Assembly (NCBI RefSeq): GCF_000383475.1 | Contig: NZ_KB911460.1 | Coordinates: forward strand, 62,001-126,000 | DNA: 64,000 bases | Direction of reading: 5' to 3' | From: Microbacterium sp. 11MF | Lineage (GTDB): Bacteria > Actinomycetota > Actinomycetes > Actinomycetales > Microbacteriaceae | Position numbers and translations under genes: made by a program | Shown: positions 28,458 to 33,905 of the stretch, piece after piece | Layout of the letters: every line of letters starts with the position of its first letter | Position numbering within the stretch: position 1 is the first letter of the stretch | The notes under the pieces: model-generated | Seen by the model: the letters and a program-made list of their open reading frames with translations, nothing else | Databases searched by the model: none | What the model was told of the DNA's origin: nothing

Positions 28458-29267
28458 ATGAGCGCGGGCGGACGGACGAGGGCGGGCAGGTCCGTGGGCC
28501 CGAACCTCGACGGCTTCACCGTGCTCGTCTCGACCCTCGGCCTCGTGGTCGCCGCCATCATCGGTCTCGCGTACGCGGATGCCGGCGATTTCGAGCTCGA
28601 TCGGATCGGGGCCGGCGGGGGTGGCGGCGGCTACGCCCTCTCGCCCTGGACGAACCCCGATCCCGTCGTCGCGGACGAGAGCGACGTCGACACGTACCGC
28701 GGCCCGGACGGCGCCGTCATCCGGCTTACGGGTCTCGACGTCGACACCCCGATCGTCCTCACCCCCGCGGAAGACACCCGCGTCAGCGCCGTCTGGGTCA
28801 CGGGTGCCGACGGCCGCATCGTCACGGAGGGCGAGGGTGGTGAGCCGCCCCGTTTCTCGACGCTGTGGGACGGTCAGATCGTCATCCTCGTCGAGCAGCC
28901 CGACGTCGAACTGTGGATCGACGGCTCCGGCGACGAGCCGTGGGAGGCGTCGCTGCGCTTCGACCGGGGACTGCGGGCCGACGACGTCCTCTCGAGTTCG
29001 CAGACCCTCATGTTCACCCACGACGGCGGCGCGACGACGGCGCGCGTGAGCGCACGCGGCGGTGACAACCTCTCGATCCAGGCCGTGACCGCCCACGGCA
29101 GCGAACGACCGCTCACCGAGGATTCGCCGTTCGACCGGTCGATCGCCTGGCGCGACGCGCCGCTCGTCCTCTTCTACATCGAGTCCTGGCACGACACGGC
29201 CTGGCGGATCGAGTTCCCGACCGACGCCGGATCCACGCCGACCCCGACCCCGGAGGGGACGCCATGA
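28458..29267 (+). CDS. Membrane-anchored extracytoplasmic protein, unknown
   Basis: 269-aa unrecognised protein. Seen: a basic N-terminus, one membrane helix FTVLVSTLGLVVAAIIGLAYA (about residues 20-40), a Gly-rich linker, then a beta-rich soluble domain expected outside the cell, ending in a Thr/Pro tail (TPTPTPEGTP). The domain repeats short DxPIVL and DVELWI strands, suggesting a beta-sandwich. The ATG follows a GGAGGGG Shine-Dalgarno. First of seven closely packed genes. It overlaps the similar gene at 29264 (ATGA). No catalytic motif is visible. Confidence 0.75.
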   Translation: MSAGGRTRAGRSVGPNLDGFTVLVSTLGLVVAAIIGLAYADAGDFELDRIGAGGGGGGYALSPWTNPDPVVADESDVDTYRGPDGAVIRLTGLDVDTPIVLTPAEDTRVSAVWVTGADGRIVTEGEGGEPPRFSTLWDGQIVILVEQPDVELWIDGSGDEPWEASLRFDRGLRADDVLSSSQTLMFTHDGGATTARVSARGGDNLSIQAVTAHGSERPLTEDSPFDRSIAWRDAPLVLFYIESWHDTAWRIEFPTDAGSTPTPTPEGTP

Positions 29268-30025
29268 CGACCGCGGATGCCCGGATCCGGCGCTTCTCGA
29301 CGATCACGTTCCTCGCGGGGTCGGTCGTCGCGGTCGTCCTGGCGTTCATCGTCGTGCCGTTCGTGGGCATCAACCCCGCCACGGGGGAGTTGCTGCTCGA
29401 CGATCCGAACGAGTACGAGTACCGCCCGTGGGCGGACCCCGCCGCGCAGGAGGTCGGTCGCGACGGCGACACGCTGATCGGGGCCGCGGGCACCCGCTAT
29501 CTGGACATCCCCGCGGGGGACGACGTCTGGGTCATCGGCCCGCTCACCGAGGGTCAGCAGGACTACCTCAGCATCCATCAGCAGATCGACGCCGACGCGA
29601 GTACCGCCGACGATCGTCCGGCCTACATCGGCCTCGTGAGCGGGTCGCGGTCGCTCACGTTCGTGGCCGGCGACCACGCGAGCCGTCTCTGGTTCGCCCC
29701 TCGGCTGACGGACTGGCGTGCGACGGTCACCCGCGAGACTCCCACGCCCGTGGACGGCGCGACGGTGTCGGGCGAGGGATCTGCCCTCCTCGTCTACGAC
29801 GGCGAGGCCCTCAGCGCGCGGTTCGTCTACGCGGGCGACGGTTTCTTCGGCGTCGAGGCCGTCTACCCCGGCGAGGCCGCCCTCGACGTCGTGCAGGGGT
29901 TTGACGCCGTCGACACGAGATCGTCCTGGCCGCCGAGCGACCGGGTCGTCCTCCGCGTCGACTCCGACGAGGGATCGGGGAAGTGGACGATCCGCTTCGA
30001 CGAACCGGCATCCGACTCACCATGA
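29264..30025 (+). CDS. Second membrane-anchored protein, similar layout to the preceding gene
   Basis: 253 aa. Seen: one N-terminal helix STITFLAGSVVAVVLAFIVVPFVG (residues 12-35) and a beta-rich outer domain with DVWVIGPL, SLTFVAGDHASRLWFAPRLTDWRATVTRE and GKWTIRF. The last segment parallels AWRIEF at the end of the previous protein, so the two are likely distant paralogues or partners. ATG at 29264 overlaps the upstream stop, and its own stop overlaps the AAA ATPase ATG at 30022. Function unknown. Confidence 0.72.
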   Translation: MTTADARIRRFSTITFLAGSVVAVVLAFIVVPFVGINPATGELLLDDPNEYEYRPWADPAAQEVGRDGDTLIGAAGTRYLDIPAGDDVWVIGPLTEGQQDYLSIHQQIDADASTADDRPAYIGLVSGSRSLTFVAGDHASRLWFAPRLTDWRATVTRETPTPVDGATVSGEGSALLVYDGEALSARFVYAGDGFFGVEAVYPGEAALDVVQGFDAVDTRSSWPPSDRVVLRVDSDEGSGKWTIRFDEPASDSP

Positions 30026-31668
30026 CCACCACACGAAAAGGAACCGACGTGACCTTCGACGCCACGCTGGATGCGGCCTTCAAGGCCCGCCTGCCCCTGC
30101 TGTACCTCGAGACGGCCGAGGAGGTCCGGGCGGTGGCCGCGATCACGGATGCCGCGCACGCCCAGCGCAACCGTCGCCGCGTCTGGACGTGGACGTCGGC
30201 GCTCGGGCTCATCGACCCCGACGGCAAGAGCGTCTCGAACACGACGAACCCCGCGCGGGCGTTGCAGCACGCGGCGGGGGTGACCGACCCGAGCGTCTTC
30301 ATCTTCTGCGACCTGCACGCCTACTTCGGCGGCGAGCACCGGCAGGGCGACCCTGCGATCGTGCGGACGGTGCGCGAGACCGCACTCGAGTTCCGCCACG
30401 GCGACGTGTCGCGGACGCTCGTCGTCACGGCGCCGGTGCGGGTGATCCCGCCCGAGCTCGACGAGCTGACCCACCTGTTCGACTTCCCGTTGCCGACCGC
30501 CGCGGAGATCCGCGATCTCCTCGACACGATGATCGAGAACAACGCGGGTGACATCCGTGTCGACGCCGACGACGCAGCGCGGGAATCGCTCGTCCAGGCC
30601 GCGCTCGGCCTCACGATGGCCGAAGCCGAGAACGCCTTCGCGCAGGCGATGGTGAACGACGGCAAGCTGACGGGCGACGACATCCGCGTCGTACTGCACG
30701 AGAAGCGCCAGGTGGTGCGCAAGTCCGGCGTGCTCGAGTTCGTCACGGGCGACCTCGACCTCGACGATGTCGGCGGCCTCAACAACCTGAAGCGCTGGCT
30801 CGAGCGTCGCAACGGGTCGTGGCTGCCGAGCGCACACGAGTACGGGCTGCCCTCGCCGAAGGGCGTGCTGATCACGGGCGTCCCCGGCTGCGGCAAGTCG
30901 ATGACCGCGAAGGCGACGGCGGCCTCGTGGGGGCTGCCGCTGCTGCGGCTCGACATCGGCCGGATCTTCTCGGGCCTCGTCGGCTCGAGCGAGCAGAACC
31001 TGCGGACGGCCATCGCGACCGCCGAGGCGGTGGCCCCCTGCATCCTGTGGGTCGACGAGATCGAGAAGGGCTTCTCGAACACCACGGGGCAGGGAGATTC
31101 GGGCACGACGGCGCGCGTGTTCGGCACGTTCCTGACCTGGATGCAGGAGAAGAAGCACCCCGTCTTCGTCGTCGCGACCGCGAACAACATCGACGCCCTA
31201 CCGCCCGAGTTCATGCGCAAGGGGCGCTTCGATGAGATCTTCTTCGTCGACCTGCCCACGACCGTCGAGCGCGAGGTCATCTGGTCGCTGCAGCTCGCCG
31301 CGCACGCCACCCCGGCCAACGGGCTCGACGCGATCGCGAAGGATGAGGCGGCCGTCGCCGCCCTCGTCGCCGCGACCGAGAACCACTCGGGCGCCGAGAT
31401 CGAGCAGGCCGTGGTCGCCGCCCTGTACGAGGGCTTCAGCGGCCGGAAGACGATCACCACCGATGTCGTCACCCGTGTCGTCGAGACGATGATCCCTCTC
31501 GCGGTCACGCAGGCCGAGGAGGTCCAGCGCATCCGCGCCTGGGCCGCCCAGCGCGCCGTCGGTGCGACCGGGACCGAAGACCTCGACGCCCACGACGTCA
31601 CCGCGAACGGCACGGAGACCCACGGGGCCCTGTCGTCGCGTCGCGGCGGTCGTACCGTGGACTACTGA
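30022..31668 (+). CDS. Ycf46-type AAA+ ATPase
   Basis: 548-aa AAA ATPase whose core closely matches cyanobacterial and plastid Ycf46. Seen: an N-terminal degenerate domain (residues 10-180, LPLLYLETAEEVRAV, VFIFCDLHAYFGG), then a full AAA module with Walker A GVPGCGKS (286-293), DIGRIFSGLVGSSEQNLRTAIATAEAVAPCILWVDEIEKG with Walker B Asp345-Glu346, FGTFLTWMQEK, VVATANNID and MRKGRFDEIFF carrying the Arg finger near 402. All catalytic residues are present. ATG at 30022 overlaps the preceding stop. GTG at 30049 with AAAAGGA six nt upstream is a good alternative. Probably a cytosolic remodelling ATPase. Its target is not known. Confidence 0.9.
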   Translation: MTTTRKGTDVTFDATLDAAFKARLPLLYLETAEEVRAVAAITDAAHAQRNRRRVWTWTSALGLIDPDGKSVSNTTNPARALQHAAGVTDPSVFIFCDLHAYFGGEHRQGDPAIVRTVRETALEFRHGDVSRTLVVTAPVRVIPPELDELTHLFDFPLPTAAEIRDLLDTMIENNAGDIRVDADDAARESLVQAALGLTMAEAENAFAQAMVNDGKLTGDDIRVVLHEKRQVVRKSGVLEFVTGDLDLDDVGGLNNLKRWLERRNGSWLPSAHEYGLPSPKGVLITGVPGCGKSMTAKATAASWGLPLLRLDIGRIFSGLVGSSEQNLRTAIATAEAVAPCILWVDEIEKGFSNTTGQGDSGTTARVFGTFLTWMQEKKHPVFVVATANNIDALPPEFMRKGRFDEIFFVDLPTTVEREVIWSLQLAAHATPANGLDAIAKDEAAVAALVAATENHSGAEIEQAVVAALYEGFSGRKTITTDVVTRVVETMIPLAVTQAEEVQRIRAWAAQRAVGATGTEDLDAHDVTANGTETHGALSSRRGGRTVDY

Positions 31669-31700
31669 CCGGTCGAGACACGCAGGAACGGGAGTCGGAC

Positions 31701-31907
31701 ATGAAGAAGCTCGTGGTGCAGTTGCGCTCCGACGGGTCGGTCGCGGCCGAGACCTTCGGGATGACGGGGGCCGAGTGCCTCGATTACATCGAGCAGCTCG
31801 AGGCGCTGCTCGATGCGGAGGCGACGTCGTCGCAGTTCACCGAGGACTACACGCGCGTCGCGTCGGCGGCATCCGATTCCCTCGTGCAGGAGGAACGGGA
31901 CCGGTGA
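31701..31907 (+). CDS. DUF2997-like small protein
   Basis: 68 aa. Seen: KKLVVQLRSDGSVAAETFGMTGAECLDYIEQLEALLDAE, the pattern of the DUF2997 family (an I/V-strand with SDG, then GxxC near residue 28, then an acidic helix). This family is found next to Ycf46 and DUF1257 genes in cyanobacteria. One Cys (about residue 28) is retained. It lies 33 bp after the AAA ATPase gene and overlaps the radical SAM gene (GTGA). Probably a partner or substrate carrying a conserved Cys. Function unknown. Confidence 0.75.
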   Translation: MKKLVVQLRSDGSVAAETFGMTGAECLDYIEQLEALLDAEATSSQFTEDYTRVASAASDSLVQEERDR

Positions 31908-32641
31908 TCGTCACCCAGTCGCTCGGCGTCGGCGGGGAGGGCAGCCTCCTCGGGACGACGCCGCCCCCGCGGGGCGGTGCAGCGCTGCAGTGGTCGCGTT
32001 TCGTGCCGGCCACCGCGGCCGAGGGCCCGGGGCTGCGGGCGGCGGTGTGGGTGCAGGGGTGTTCGGTCCGCTGCCCCGGATGCTTCAACCCGCACATGTG
32101 GGCCGAACGGGGGGCGCTGCTCGATGACCCCGCCGATCTCGCGTCGCGGTGGGTCGAGGACGCACGGGCCGCCGGCGCCGAGGGTGTGACACTCCTCGGC
32201 GGCGAGCCGTTCGATCAGGCCGACGCGCTCGCCACGGTCGCCGAGGCGTTCCGCGATGCGGGACTCGGCGTCATGGCGTTCTCGGGGTACACGCTGGACC
32301 GTCTGCAGGCCTGGGCCGCGGAGCGCGACGGCGTCGCGCGCCTGCTCGCCGCGACCGACCTGCTGTGCGACGGACCGTACCTCGCCGACCTCCCCGACAC
32401 GCGTCGGCCGTGGATTGGGTCGCAGAACCAGTCGATCCGCGCCCTCACGCCCCGGTACGCCGCGGAGGTCGACCGCATCGCGCGCGACGGCGGCCGGGAC
32501 GCCCTCGAAGTGCGCATCTCCGCCGACGGCGCCGTCGCCGTCAACGGGTGGGCGACGGATGCCGCGCTCGCCGACCTGCTGGACGATCTGGGCGTGCGCG
32601 GTGACCGCGTGGCATCCATCAGAAAGGGAACCTCCCGATGA
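31904..32641 (+). CDS. NrdG/PflA-like radical SAM protein
   Basis: 245-aa radical S-adenosylmethionine protein. Seen: RFVPATAAEGPGLRAAVWVQGCSVRCPGCFNPHMW with Cys53, Cys57 and Cys60 as the CxxxCxxC motif for the 4Fe-4S cluster, then GVTLLGGEPFDQADAL (the GGEP motif) and GVMAFSGYTLDRLQ. It resembles glycyl-radical activating enzymes such as NrdG but is longer, with an extra C-terminal region (ALTPRYAAEVDRI to the end). No glycyl-radical enzyme gene is nearby. GTG start at 31904 overlaps DUF2997, and the stop overlaps the next gene. Its radical target is unknown. DUF2997 or DUF1257 are candidates by context. Confidence 0.88.
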   Translation: MIVTQSLGVGGEGSLLGTTPPPRGGAALQWSRFVPATAAEGPGLRAAVWVQGCSVRCPGCFNPHMWAERGALLDDPADLASRWVEDARAAGAEGVTLLGGEPFDQADALATVAEAFRDAGLGVMAFSGYTLDRLQAWAAERDGVARLLAATDLLCDGPYLADLPDTRRPWIGSQNQSIRALTPRYAAEVDRIARDGGRDALEVRISADGAVAVNGWATDAALADLLDDLGVRGDRVASIRKGTSR

Positions 32642-33144
32642 GCATCTCGCTGATCCTCCTCCCCGCCGCCCTCGCCGCCGCCGCGGCCGTCGGCGGTACG
32701 GGCGCCCTTGGCGCGATCGCCCTGAACTCGCGGGCGACGTCCGGCCCCCGCGGCGAGTCGGAGGCCGTCCCGATCGCCGTGCAGACCCGGATGAAGGACC
32801 CCGACCTGCTCGCGGCCGCGCTCGCCGACCTGGGCGGGGCGGATGCCGTGCTCGTCGACGGGGTGCTGACGGCGACGATCGACGGCGTCGAGATCGTCAT
32901 GTCGCGGACCGACGACGGGGTCTGGGGCGCCCACCTGTCGCGGCTCGACGGCCACGAGGTGACCGAGGCCGAGGCGACCGCCCTCATGACGCGAGTGGAT
33001 GCCGCCTACGCGCGTCACGTGCAGCGTGCGGTCGCCGAGCGCATCCGCTCCCGCGCCGATCAGGCGGGGTTCGAGCTCGTCTCCGAGACGCGCGACGAGG
33101 ATGACACCGTCACGATGGTGCTGAACGTGCGGGACTACGCGTGA
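32638..33144 (+). CDS. DUF1257/Ycf35-like protein with N-terminal membrane helix
   Basis: 168 aa. Seen: an N-terminal hydrophobic stretch SLILLPAALAAAAAVGGTGALGAIAL (residues 4-29), then a domain with TRMKDPDLLAAALADLGGADA and, near the C-terminus, DAAYARHVQRAVAERIRSRADQAGFELVSETRDEDDTVTMVLNVRDY. This follows the Ycf35/DUF1257 pattern (KDxxxLxxALxDLG ... YAxxxVxxxAxxxGF ... I.L.V..). The membrane helix is an addition to the usual soluble Ycf35. ATG at 32638 overlaps the radical SAM stop. Remote match, so moderate confidence in the family. Confidence 0.72.
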   Translation: MSISLILLPAALAAAAAVGGTGALGAIALNSRATSGPRGESEAVPIAVQTRMKDPDLLAAALADLGGADAVLVDGVLTATIDGVEIVMSRTDDGVWGAHLSRLDGHEVTEAEATALMTRVDAAYARHVQRAVAERIRSRADQAGFELVSETRDEDDTVTMVLNVRDYA

Positions 33145-33905
33145 GCACTCCCGCCCGAGACAGCGCGGTGCCGAGTTGGGGCTGGCTGCTCGGCGTCAGT
33201 TCGTGGCTCCTCCTCGTCTTCTTCGGGCCGGGCTCGGCGTGGATCGGCTTCCTCATCGTGGGGCTGGTCTCTCGTCGACGTGCCGCGTTCGTGGCGACCG
33301 CCGTGAGCGGGCTGTTGTACATCTCCGTGATCACCGAGCTCTGGGGCGGGCTGACCAGCATGGTCAACGCGGTCGCCCACCTCGGGGGCATCGTCTTCGC
33401 ACTCATCCTGAACCCCGGGTGGCTGCGGTCGCGGTGGGAGGCCCGCACGTCGCGGGGAGCGGCGCGGACGTCGACCCACGGCTCGCGCGGACGGCGATCC
33501 ACCCAGCGGTCCACGAAGCGCCCCACGACCGCGGCATCCTCCGGCTCGGCCCGATCTGCGGCCTCGACCCGCTCCGCGGCTCCGACGCGCTCGACCGAGG
33601 CGACGCGCCTGGCCGCCTCCGTCGGCGCGTCGTCCGCCGACCTGCTGCAGACGGCGGAGCCGGCCGAACCCGTCGACGTGCAGAACGCGACGGCGGACGA
33701 ACTGGCCGAGCTGCCGGGCCTCACCCGCACCAAGGCACGCCGCGCCGTGCGGACGCGCGGCAAGAACGGCGGATTCACCTCGCTCGAGGACTTCGGCGAG
33801 GCCGCCGGCTTGCAGCCGCACGAGATCGTCCGACTGCGATCGGTGGCGACCTGCTCGCCCCGGCCCCGCGGCGAACGCCGGTTCGGCCGACGGGTGGATC
33901 TCTGA
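33141..33905 (+). CDS. Membrane protein with C-terminal ComEA-like helix-hairpin-helix
   Basis: 254 aa. Seen: three membrane helices in residues 12-95 (WLLGVSSWLLLVFFGPG, WIGFLIVGLVS, SGLLYISVITELW), a Ser/Thr/Ala/Arg-rich low-complexity linker (about 105-165), and a C-terminal HhH motif DVQNATADELAELPGLTRTKARRAVRTR (about 183-210) as in ComEA and DNA-binding HhH proteins, followed by a basic tail. GTG start at 33141 overlaps the preceding stop. It ends the cluster that begins at 28458. It could bring nucleic acid or a partner protein to the membrane. Confidence 0.78.
   Translation: MSTPARDSAVPSWGWLLGVSSWLLLVFFGPGSAWIGFLIVGLVSRRRAAFVATAVSGLLYISVITELWGGLTSMVNAVAHLGGIVFALILNPGWLRSRWEARTSRGAARTSTHGSRGRRSTQRSTKRPTTAASSGSARSAASTRSAAPTRSTEATRLAASVGASSADLLQTAEPAEPVDVQNATADELAELPGLTRTKARRAVRTRGKNGGFTSLEDFGEAAGLQPHEIVRLRSVATCSPRPRGERRFGRRVDL

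Follow-up and report, generated by a model that had tools for sequence, protein, structure and literature searches.

Cyanobacteria retain Ycf46, Ycf35 and DUF2997, and many algal plastids have ycf46 and ycf35. No function was given to the Ycf46/Ycf35/DUF2997 set as a whole in the literature that we searched. According to one report (PMC4284462), DUF2997, Ycf35 and fed7 form a conserved cyanobacterial cluster, Fed7 being a [4Fe-4S] ferredoxin. Here we analyzed a related cassette in Microbacterium sp. 11MF, where seven genes, all on the + strand, occupy positions 28458-33905 of a 64,000-nucleotide stretch of contig NZ_KB911460.1 (positions 62,001 to 126,000; hereafter the window). Their products are, in order, two putative exported proteins (P1 and P2), an AAA+ ATPase (AAA), a DUF2997 protein, a radical S-adenosylmethionine (SAM) protein, a DUF1257 (Ycf35)-like protein and a protein with hydrophobic helices and a helix-hairpin-helix (HhH) domain. 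The analyses below indicated that this cassette is genuine and conserved, and that it varies the Ycf46/Ycf35/DUF2997 set by including a radical SAM enzyme, membrane partners and a C-terminal tail common to two of its proteins. A radical SAM version of the set was not described in the literature searched, in which subscription journals and preprints were thinly covered, so this is no proof of absence.

Conservation and distribution of the cassette

Among 149 Microbacterium genomes, its own included, a close orthologue of the radical SAM protein (threshold E<1e-80) was found in 15. All seven genes were present in the same order in 14 of these by tblastn, and the fifteenth genome (G104, L032) had six of the seven, P1 not being found by the same search. 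Nine of the 14 Microbacterium cassettes other than that of the window were flanked by purA-lactonase and chorismate mutase; one of the remaining five had the chorismate mutase flank alone in reach, and four had neither flank. The purA region was also read in six genomes that lack the orthologue; four of them showed purA, lactonase and chorismate mutase with zero cassette genes, and in the other two the second flank was absent from the stretch. The comparison of flanks therefore indicated that the Microbacterium cassette has mostly been gained or lost whole at one site.

Beyond the genus, the radical SAM protein was used to seed a scan of a species-genome collection, of which the best 80 of 99 relatives were read. 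DUF2997 or DUF1257 was present in 42 of these loci, and 37 of the 42 had the core five genes (AAA, DUF2997, radical SAM, DUF1257-like and HhH membrane protein); a P1/P2-type gene was found in 33 of the 42 and both P1 and P2 in 17. Carriers included Microbacterium, Cryobacterium, Mycetocola, Glaciihabitans, Labedella, Georgenia and Arthrobacter, and the core five were also complete on four actinobacterial plasmids and one viral contig. The order AAA-DUF1257-DUF2997-HhH-radical SAM was observed in Blastococcus, Nocardia, two Paenarthrobacter plasmids, one Arthrobacter plasmid and one Rhodococcus plasmid. Rearranged versions were seen on metagenome-assembled genome (MAG) contigs of Ruminococcus (DUF2997 not found) and Selenomonas (AAA not found), and on one viral contig where a terminase-like gene was recognized by eye. 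By Pfam, DUF2997 was detected in three of 296 genomes of the window's phylum at E 0.001 or less, two of them over the cut-off, own genome included.

Because the whole unit recurs, we consider the cassette to be beyond chance. These data support a conserved, membrane-associated unit that has the AAA/DUF2997/DUF1257 set as its foundation and to which the radical SAM gene regularly belongs. An earlier, sequence-only reading of the window had called for a survey of the gene neighbourhood and had staked its case on the core families occurring together in other actinobacteria, which they do. It had also pictured a membrane-tethered system in which the ATPase remodels a partner and the radical SAM enzyme modifies or activates it; the conserved membrane-associated unit with its radical SAM member held, whereas modification and remodelling are a proposal, to which we return below.

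Some relatives of the cassette were altered. In Nocardia crassostreae (L080:5727-8063) the cassette is decaying, with AAA split by a stop and a DUF2997 without its Cys. The DUF1257-like gene of Arthrobacter sp. 11W110_air (L084:8761-10566) is on the opposite strand and the radical SAM frame ends early, a local inversion or an assembly fault. The radical SAM frame of a Cryobacterium MAG (L077:8506-9707) is broken, and no AAA match was found there.

A tail shared by the ATPase and the HhH protein

The window AAA ends in RGGRTVDY and the HhH membrane protein in FGRRVDL. This likeness was defined as the pattern R-x-[VILMF]-[DE]-[FYLMIVW] at the extreme C-terminus, and across the 42 cassette loci it was present in 38 of 39 AAA proteins and 44 of 46 HhH hits. 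Three hits departed from it, namely the Nocardia AAA that is interrupted by a stop, an HhH protein truncated where its contig ends, and an antisense frame of low score in L084. In a wider pool, 94 of 11,495 closed frames matched, comprising 46 HhH proteins, 42 AAA proteins and six others; the loci of this pool held 48 HhH and 56 AAA hits scoring above 25 bits, and the AAA count took in other kinds of AAA. The pattern was kept in distant cassettes, such as those of the Ruminococcus MAG (AAA GGRMLDY, HhH GRVLDL), the Rhodococcus plasmid (AAA GGRTFEF, HhH GRRLEF) and viral contig L159 (AAA GGRTLDF, with two HhH proteins ending RNIDI and RNIDL). Looser tails were seen on the Paenibacillus polymyxa plasmid pPPM1a, where two hydrophobic-helix proteins end in RVIHF and RVIRL beside an AAA ending in RRISH. 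Arg was the best-kept residue, and the Gly preceding it varied to Ala or Ser in HhH tails.

Within the 15 cassette genomes, the Phe/Tyr-ending form of the tail, searched as DNA, occurred 27 times, 25 of them inside the cassette, and synonymous codons differed between the copies. The varying codons indicated that selection acts on the protein, and a DNA-level element was rejected on the same ground. A genome-wide client tag was likewise rejected, as only two of the 27 matches lay outside the cassette (the Leu-ending form was not searched). With its Arg and acidic residue fixed between hydrophobic residues, and its presence on the ATPase and on varying partners, the tail suggests a docking motif, which we consider its best reading. 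The sequence-only reading had overlooked this tail, together with the paralogy of P1 and P2 and the plasmid and phage relatives of the cassette.

The tail was also examined on viral contigs, in a scan seeded with AAA (best 80 of 419 relatives) and unselected for the radical SAM gene. Neither DUF2997 nor DUF1257 was found in the stretch at 51 of these loci, although nine of the 51 end within 3 kb of AAA, which tells against our use of them; none had a radical SAM gene, and 26 of their AAA proteins had the tail with one extra residue allowed. The tail thus does not require the radical SAM gene. A radical SAM gene was present in 14 of the 29 loci with DUF2997 or DUF1257. The next frame had the motif in its last 90 residues at 14 of 27 tailed AAA proteins versus nine of 52 untailed ones (p 0.003, not dereplicated; two of the 27 tailed loci had no usable frame), a comparison weakened by the automatic and crude choice of the next frame. 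The motif sometimes occurred twice in the frame next to a tailed viral AAA. In mycobacteriophage Bora, the AAA gp95 ends in RVLDL and gp93 carries RAIDF near its end.

Several further tails were noted in passing. At L237:5915-6781, L201:7555-8406 and L246:4322-5122 the protein adjoining an AAA of phage family phrog_8638 (phrog_11021 for L237) had at least one R-x-phi-[DE]-phi, phi being hydrophobic, near its C-terminus. Acidic AAA tails ending in Leu (e.g., DEDDL) were seen on viral contigs L170, L174, L176, L182, L184, L189 and L197, and AAA tails RRRIMS, RRRIMN or RRRVMN stood beside DUF2997 and radical SAM genes on viral contigs L172, L175, L180 and L190. The AAA of Treponema succinifaciens pTRESU01 (L039:1-15140) ends in RKLEM.

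Products of the seven genes

The coordinates and strand of all seven genes (Table 1) agreed with those read earlier from the sequence. Five of the six junctions were overlaps, again as read, and each measured 4 bp; the sixth was a gap of 32 bp and not of 33.

Table 1. Features of the Microbacterium sp. 11MF cassette, in window coordinates
Feature	Position	Strand	Remarks
P1	28458..29267	+	N-terminal membrane helix plus exported part; P2 paralogue; undetected in many relatives
P2	29264..30025	+	N-terminal membrane helix (3-33 in model) and tandem beta-rich ectodomain; second domain ColG collagen-binding-like
AAA+ ATPase, Ycf46-like, phrog_8638	30022..31668	+	PF00004 E 6.8e-31; one complete AAA domain after a diverged N-terminal region
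AAA C-terminal tail codons, GGRTVDY and stop	31645..31668	+	
DUF2997 protein, near-invariant Cys	31701..31907	+	PF11211 E 2.8e-12
NrdG/PFL-activase-like radical SAM protein, CxxxCxxC, GTG start	31904..32641	+	PF13353 E 7e-30, PF04055 E 4.2e-7
DUF1257 (Ycf35)-like protein, hydrophobic N-terminus	32638..33144	+	Pfam E 0.18 (under cut-off); hhalign E 3e-5
HhH protein, three hydrophobic helices, C-terminal HhH domain predicted cytosolic	33141..33905	+	PF12836 E 2.5e-12
HhH-protein C-terminal tail codons, GRRVDL and stop	33885..33905	+	

In addition to its Pfam match, the window AAA matched phage family phrog_8638 almost from end to end (E 7.1e-137, residues 15-523). In 15 of 15 aligned proteins the residues of Walker A, of Walker B and of the candidate Arg finger were complete and unchanged, bearing out what had been read from the sequence, with the Arg finger as a candidate. 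The protein was 40% identical to the AAA of a cyanobacterial plasmid (L040) that also has DUF1257 and DUF2997.

Both profiles of the radical SAM protein scored over their cut-offs (PF04055, 30.7 bits against 29.5; Fer4_12, PF13353, 104.5 bits against 22). The CxxxCxxC motif, formed by C53, C57 and C60, was invariant in 12 of 12 aligned proteins, confirming this assignment, and EGPG and GGEP motifs were also present. The placement of DUF2997 was also firm (46.7 bits against a cut-off of 24.1), and the doubt that the sequence-only reading had left over it is thereby removed. Across 72 distinct DUF2997 sequences matching at 30 bits or more, the Cys was kept in 71, and Gly was kept at two places (71 of 71 and 71 of 72). 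The sole DUF2997 without the Cys was that of Nocardia L080, which lies beside the AAA broken by a stop.

The viral loci also bore on the target of the radical SAM protein. DUF2997 or DUF1257 was present at 14 of 14 viral loci with a radical SAM gene versus 15 of 66 without one (p 5e-8), and with one locus per 70% identity AAA cluster the counts were 8 of 8 versus 12 of 40 (p 3e-4). This tie favours DUF2997 or the DUF1257-like protein as the target, the two candidates that had been guessed earlier, and we infer that DUF2997 is the likeliest target or redox partner. The guess fared less well at 38 of the 80 loci (best 80 of 99) seeded with the radical SAM protein, which had neither DUF2997 nor DUF1257, and on Treponema pTRESU01, where an AAA of this kind (717 bits) adjoins the radical SAM gene and neither family was found in about 15 kb; both observations count against our reading as well.

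The same radical SAM subfamily was seen in another cassette (L033:8593-17966, L037:1-8606, L043:1-8558), composed of a large AAA-domain protein, a PIN-domain protein, a hypothetical protein, a second AAA and the radical SAM protein. The 38 seeded loci without DUF2997 and DUF1257, many of them from Proteobacteria, included 29 with a second AAA, and 23 with PIN, hypothetical and second AAA genes together. At a guess, this may be a conflict cassette. On the Calothrix plasmid pCAL6303.02 (L154:1442-12963) a cluster had the order Hsp70, TPR, radical SAM, hypothetical and another AAA.

The DUF1257-like protein was weakly matched by Pfam (12.5 bits, where the cut-off is 22.2). Profile-profile alignment with hhalign covered 108 columns at a probability of 73%, against a reference set of seven proteins, five annotated as DUF1257 and two chosen by cassette position. 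The protein was alignable with the proteins in the DUF1257 position of plasmid and genome cassettes, with T-x3-D-x3-L-x2-A-L-x3-G near the start. Based on the hhalign match and the kept position in the cassette, we tentatively accepted it as a divergent DUF1257 below the Pfam cut-off, an assignment that the alignments support; the earlier placement in this family, frail by Pfam, thus has the profile-profile match behind it. Pfam found DUF1257 in none of 38 genomes, own included, and Pfam alone therefore misses the actinobacterial form. The added membrane helix that had been read at the N-terminus is doubtful. Residues 1-24 are hydrophobic, and the predicted structure divides them at low confidence into a strand (3-9) and a helix (10-18). 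The model gave no Foldseek match at E of 0.001 or less. A likeness to the SNF1 heterotrimer core (VIA-align Z 8.0, rmsd 2.6, 80 residues) was in the range of a common arrangement and permitted no conclusion on the fold.

P1 and P2 had no matches in Pfam. Each cross-matched the orthologues of the other, and for this reason the two were treated as paralogues. Both together were detected solely in Microbacterium loci (17), and 16 further loci had a single P1/P2-type gene. They had been described as single-helix proteins with beta-rich outer domains, and P2 was modelled in this form (pLDDT 91). Residues 160-247 of P2 resembled the collagen-binding domain of ColG (1nqj_A; VIA-align Z 9.2, rmsd 2.6, 85 residues), the one match that stood out among many weak beta-sandwich matches; Foldseek TM-scores for P2 were only 0.2-0.4. 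Mean identity between the window proteins and their Microbacterium orthologues was 43% for P1 and P2 (13 and 14 compared) and 81% for AAA (14). P1 and P2 are thus the fastest diverging, which would fit a sensor that faces outwards.

The HhH protein has three hydrophobic helices and a HHH_3 (PF12836) domain, as had been read. Its likeness to ComEA went no further than this domain, the comE family scoring 28.9 of 152.35 bits, below its cut-off. The positive charge of the protein would put its C-terminal half in the cytosol, and hence the tail where the ATPase could be met.

A proposed mechanism and its rivals

Our preferred, tentative reading, to which we give a little less than an even chance, is that the products of the cassette form one membrane-tethered AAA+ remodelling machine with a docking tail, in which the radical SAM protein most likely acts on DUF2997. 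The tail R-x-phi-[DE]-phi-COOH would serve as the docking motif, and the ATPase ring, or a subunit bound to the ring, would have a pocket that accepts the ATPase's own tail. The AAA ring would be the simplest reader of the tail, because AAA is the sole homologous part that we see shared by the phage version and the radical SAM version. By mimicking this tail, the HhH protein could keep the ring at the membrane or switch it there. DUF2997 and the DUF1257-like protein would be adaptor subunits of the ring, and the radical SAM protein would be their Fe-S partner, in the place held by Fed7 beside DUF2997 and Ycf35 in cyanobacteria, probably acting on DUF2997 at or near the near-invariant G..C segment. 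P1 and P2 would sense or hold an envelope ligand, and ATP hydrolysis would lead to the remodelling of a client at the membrane. A more specific form of the proposal is that the membrane partner's copy of the tail competes for the same pocket, and so controls the ring, and that DUF2997 is modified at G..C (e.g., by a Cys-Calpha thioether) to give a covalently altered ring adaptor; in this full form we consider it unlikely.

Several observations weigh against the preferred reading. The mechanism was drawn from sequence and single-chain models, and the ATPase is a putative Ycf46. The tail was present in only one of the 29 viral AAA proteins encoded with DUF2997 or DUF1257, so tail and adaptors need not act together. 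Strict tails were mostly missing from the AAA proteins that we read in plasmid cassettes without a radical SAM gene (IncC, Geminocystis, Manganitrophus, Pseudanabaena, Thermovibrio), and also from the Paenibacillus polymyxa AAA, whose cassette has one. Lastly, the DUF2997 Cys was retained where no radical SAM gene was seen nearby and hence need not be the target of the radical SAM protein.

The clues to the role of the cassette point two ways, to chaperones and the envelope and to mobile elements, and cannot be used to choose between them. An envelope or chaperone stress machine, in which ATPase and chaperones assist the folding or quality control of exported proteins and no cassette protein is modified by the radical SAM enzyme, is unlikely. 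It would suit a Pseudanabaena plasmid with the gene order GrpE-Hsp70-DUF1257-...-DUF2997-AAA, and also the binding of Fed7, encoded with DUF2997 and Ycf35, to a DnaJ-like protein in a two-hybrid assay, as given in PMC4284462. The Ycf46 gene is in a stress-responsive operon and its loss lowers EcaB activity, as cited in PMC7496141. However, the window cassette has no chaperone gene, and the chaperone links come from distant cassettes. On the side of mobile elements, a related set lies near transfer genes on an IncC plasmid, and the AAA and radical SAM genes of Treponema pTRESU01 share their locus with genes that resemble VgrG and phage baseplate V. An anti-phage or plasmid-conflict system, in which the ectodomains sense and the ATPase and radical SAM protein execute, would account for these relatives on plasmids and viral contigs, for the patchy occurrence in 15 of 149 genus genomes and for the fast evolution of P1 and P2. 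We nevertheless find it distinctly unlikely, as PADLOC gave weak or general matches (IetA, TRIP13 and mad8 for AAA; pVip, E 0.003, for the radical SAM protein), AAA scored 68 of the 510 bits of the curated anti-phage ATPase equivalog IetA/IteA, below its cut-off, nine of 14 Microbacterium cassettes sit at a common place in the chromosome, and phages themselves carry AAA with DUF2997 and DUF1257-like genes.

The other two rivals concern the radical SAM enzyme. Its substrates could be the AAA and HhH tails themselves, through a C-terminal modification such as decarboxylation or crosslinking; enzymes of this type that modify C-terminal residues exist (mycofactocin MftC), and both tails are strongly conserved in radical SAM cassettes. 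The presence of the tail on 26 of 51 viral AAA proteins without a radical SAM gene in the stretch and the motif inside the neighbouring protein disfavour this idea, as do the Arg being the best-kept residue and the variation of the Gly before it, and we judge it very unlikely. The last rival, by which the enzyme works as a common NrdG on a glycyl radical enzyme encoded elsewhere and stands in the cassette by accident, is nearly refuted. Its best equivalog was indeed NrdG and the nearest solved structure by sequence was pyruvate formate-lyase (PFL) activase (E 2.5e-12). Yet the NrdG score was 86.7 of 126.1 bits, below the cut-off, the position in the cassette is conserved, and Gly_radical (PF01228) and NRDD (PF13597) were each found in none of the 14 cassette genomes searched, with positives in three and six of 14 control genomes, respectively. 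A glycyl radical enzyme was accordingly rejected as the target, in line with the earlier remark that none was nearby.

Comparison with known systems

The phage relatives share the ATPase. In the module of phrog_8638 and phrog_11021 (viral contig L237, and Bora, in which gp95 shows 51% and gp93 41% identity to its L237 counterpart), AAA is homologous to the window protein over its full length. Unlike the cassette, Bora gave no match to DUF2997, to DUF1257 or to the radical SAM protein in the 6 kb read, and the partner protein of the module had no HhH match. Aeromonas phage HJ05, Agrobacterium phage JP1 and Rhodobacter phage RcTiptonus have AAA at 354-429 bits and DUF2997 at 31-41 bits, and a DUF1257-like protein was found in HJ05 by profile (25 bits) and in JP1 by eye. 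They differ from the cassette in having no radical SAM match in the stretches read and a basic tail (e.g., RKLKL, RKITI) on the AAA neighbour. As related AAA proteins are common on phages and plasmids, an answer for this cassette would help to explain many phage genes.

The EGPG, CxxxCxxC and GGEP motifs and the match to PFL activase structures align the radical SAM protein with NrdG and PFL activase, from which it is set apart by its sub-threshold NrdG score and by the cassette genomes in which their glycyl radical partner was not found.

ATPases and chaperones are known to have C-terminal docking tails, such as the HbYX motif of proteasomal ATPases, the p97 tail and the EEVD of Hsp70/90. The cassette resembles these in having a short conserved C-terminal peptide on its ATPase and differs in its consensus and in having a membrane partner that carries the ATPase's peptide. 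Such a shared tail predicts a binding pocket.

Compared with the cyanobacterial Ycf46/Ycf35/DUF2997/Fed7 set, the cassette has DUF2997, a DUF1257-like protein and an Fe-S partner in common, and cyanobacterial plasmids with DUF1257 and DUF2997 also have a similar AAA. It departs from that set in the hydrophobic N-terminus of its DUF1257-like protein, in adding exported beta-rich proteins and an HhH protein with three hydrophobic helices that copies the ATPase tail, and in having as its Fe-S partner a radical SAM enzyme and not a ferredoxin, a replacement that predicts a measurable modification.

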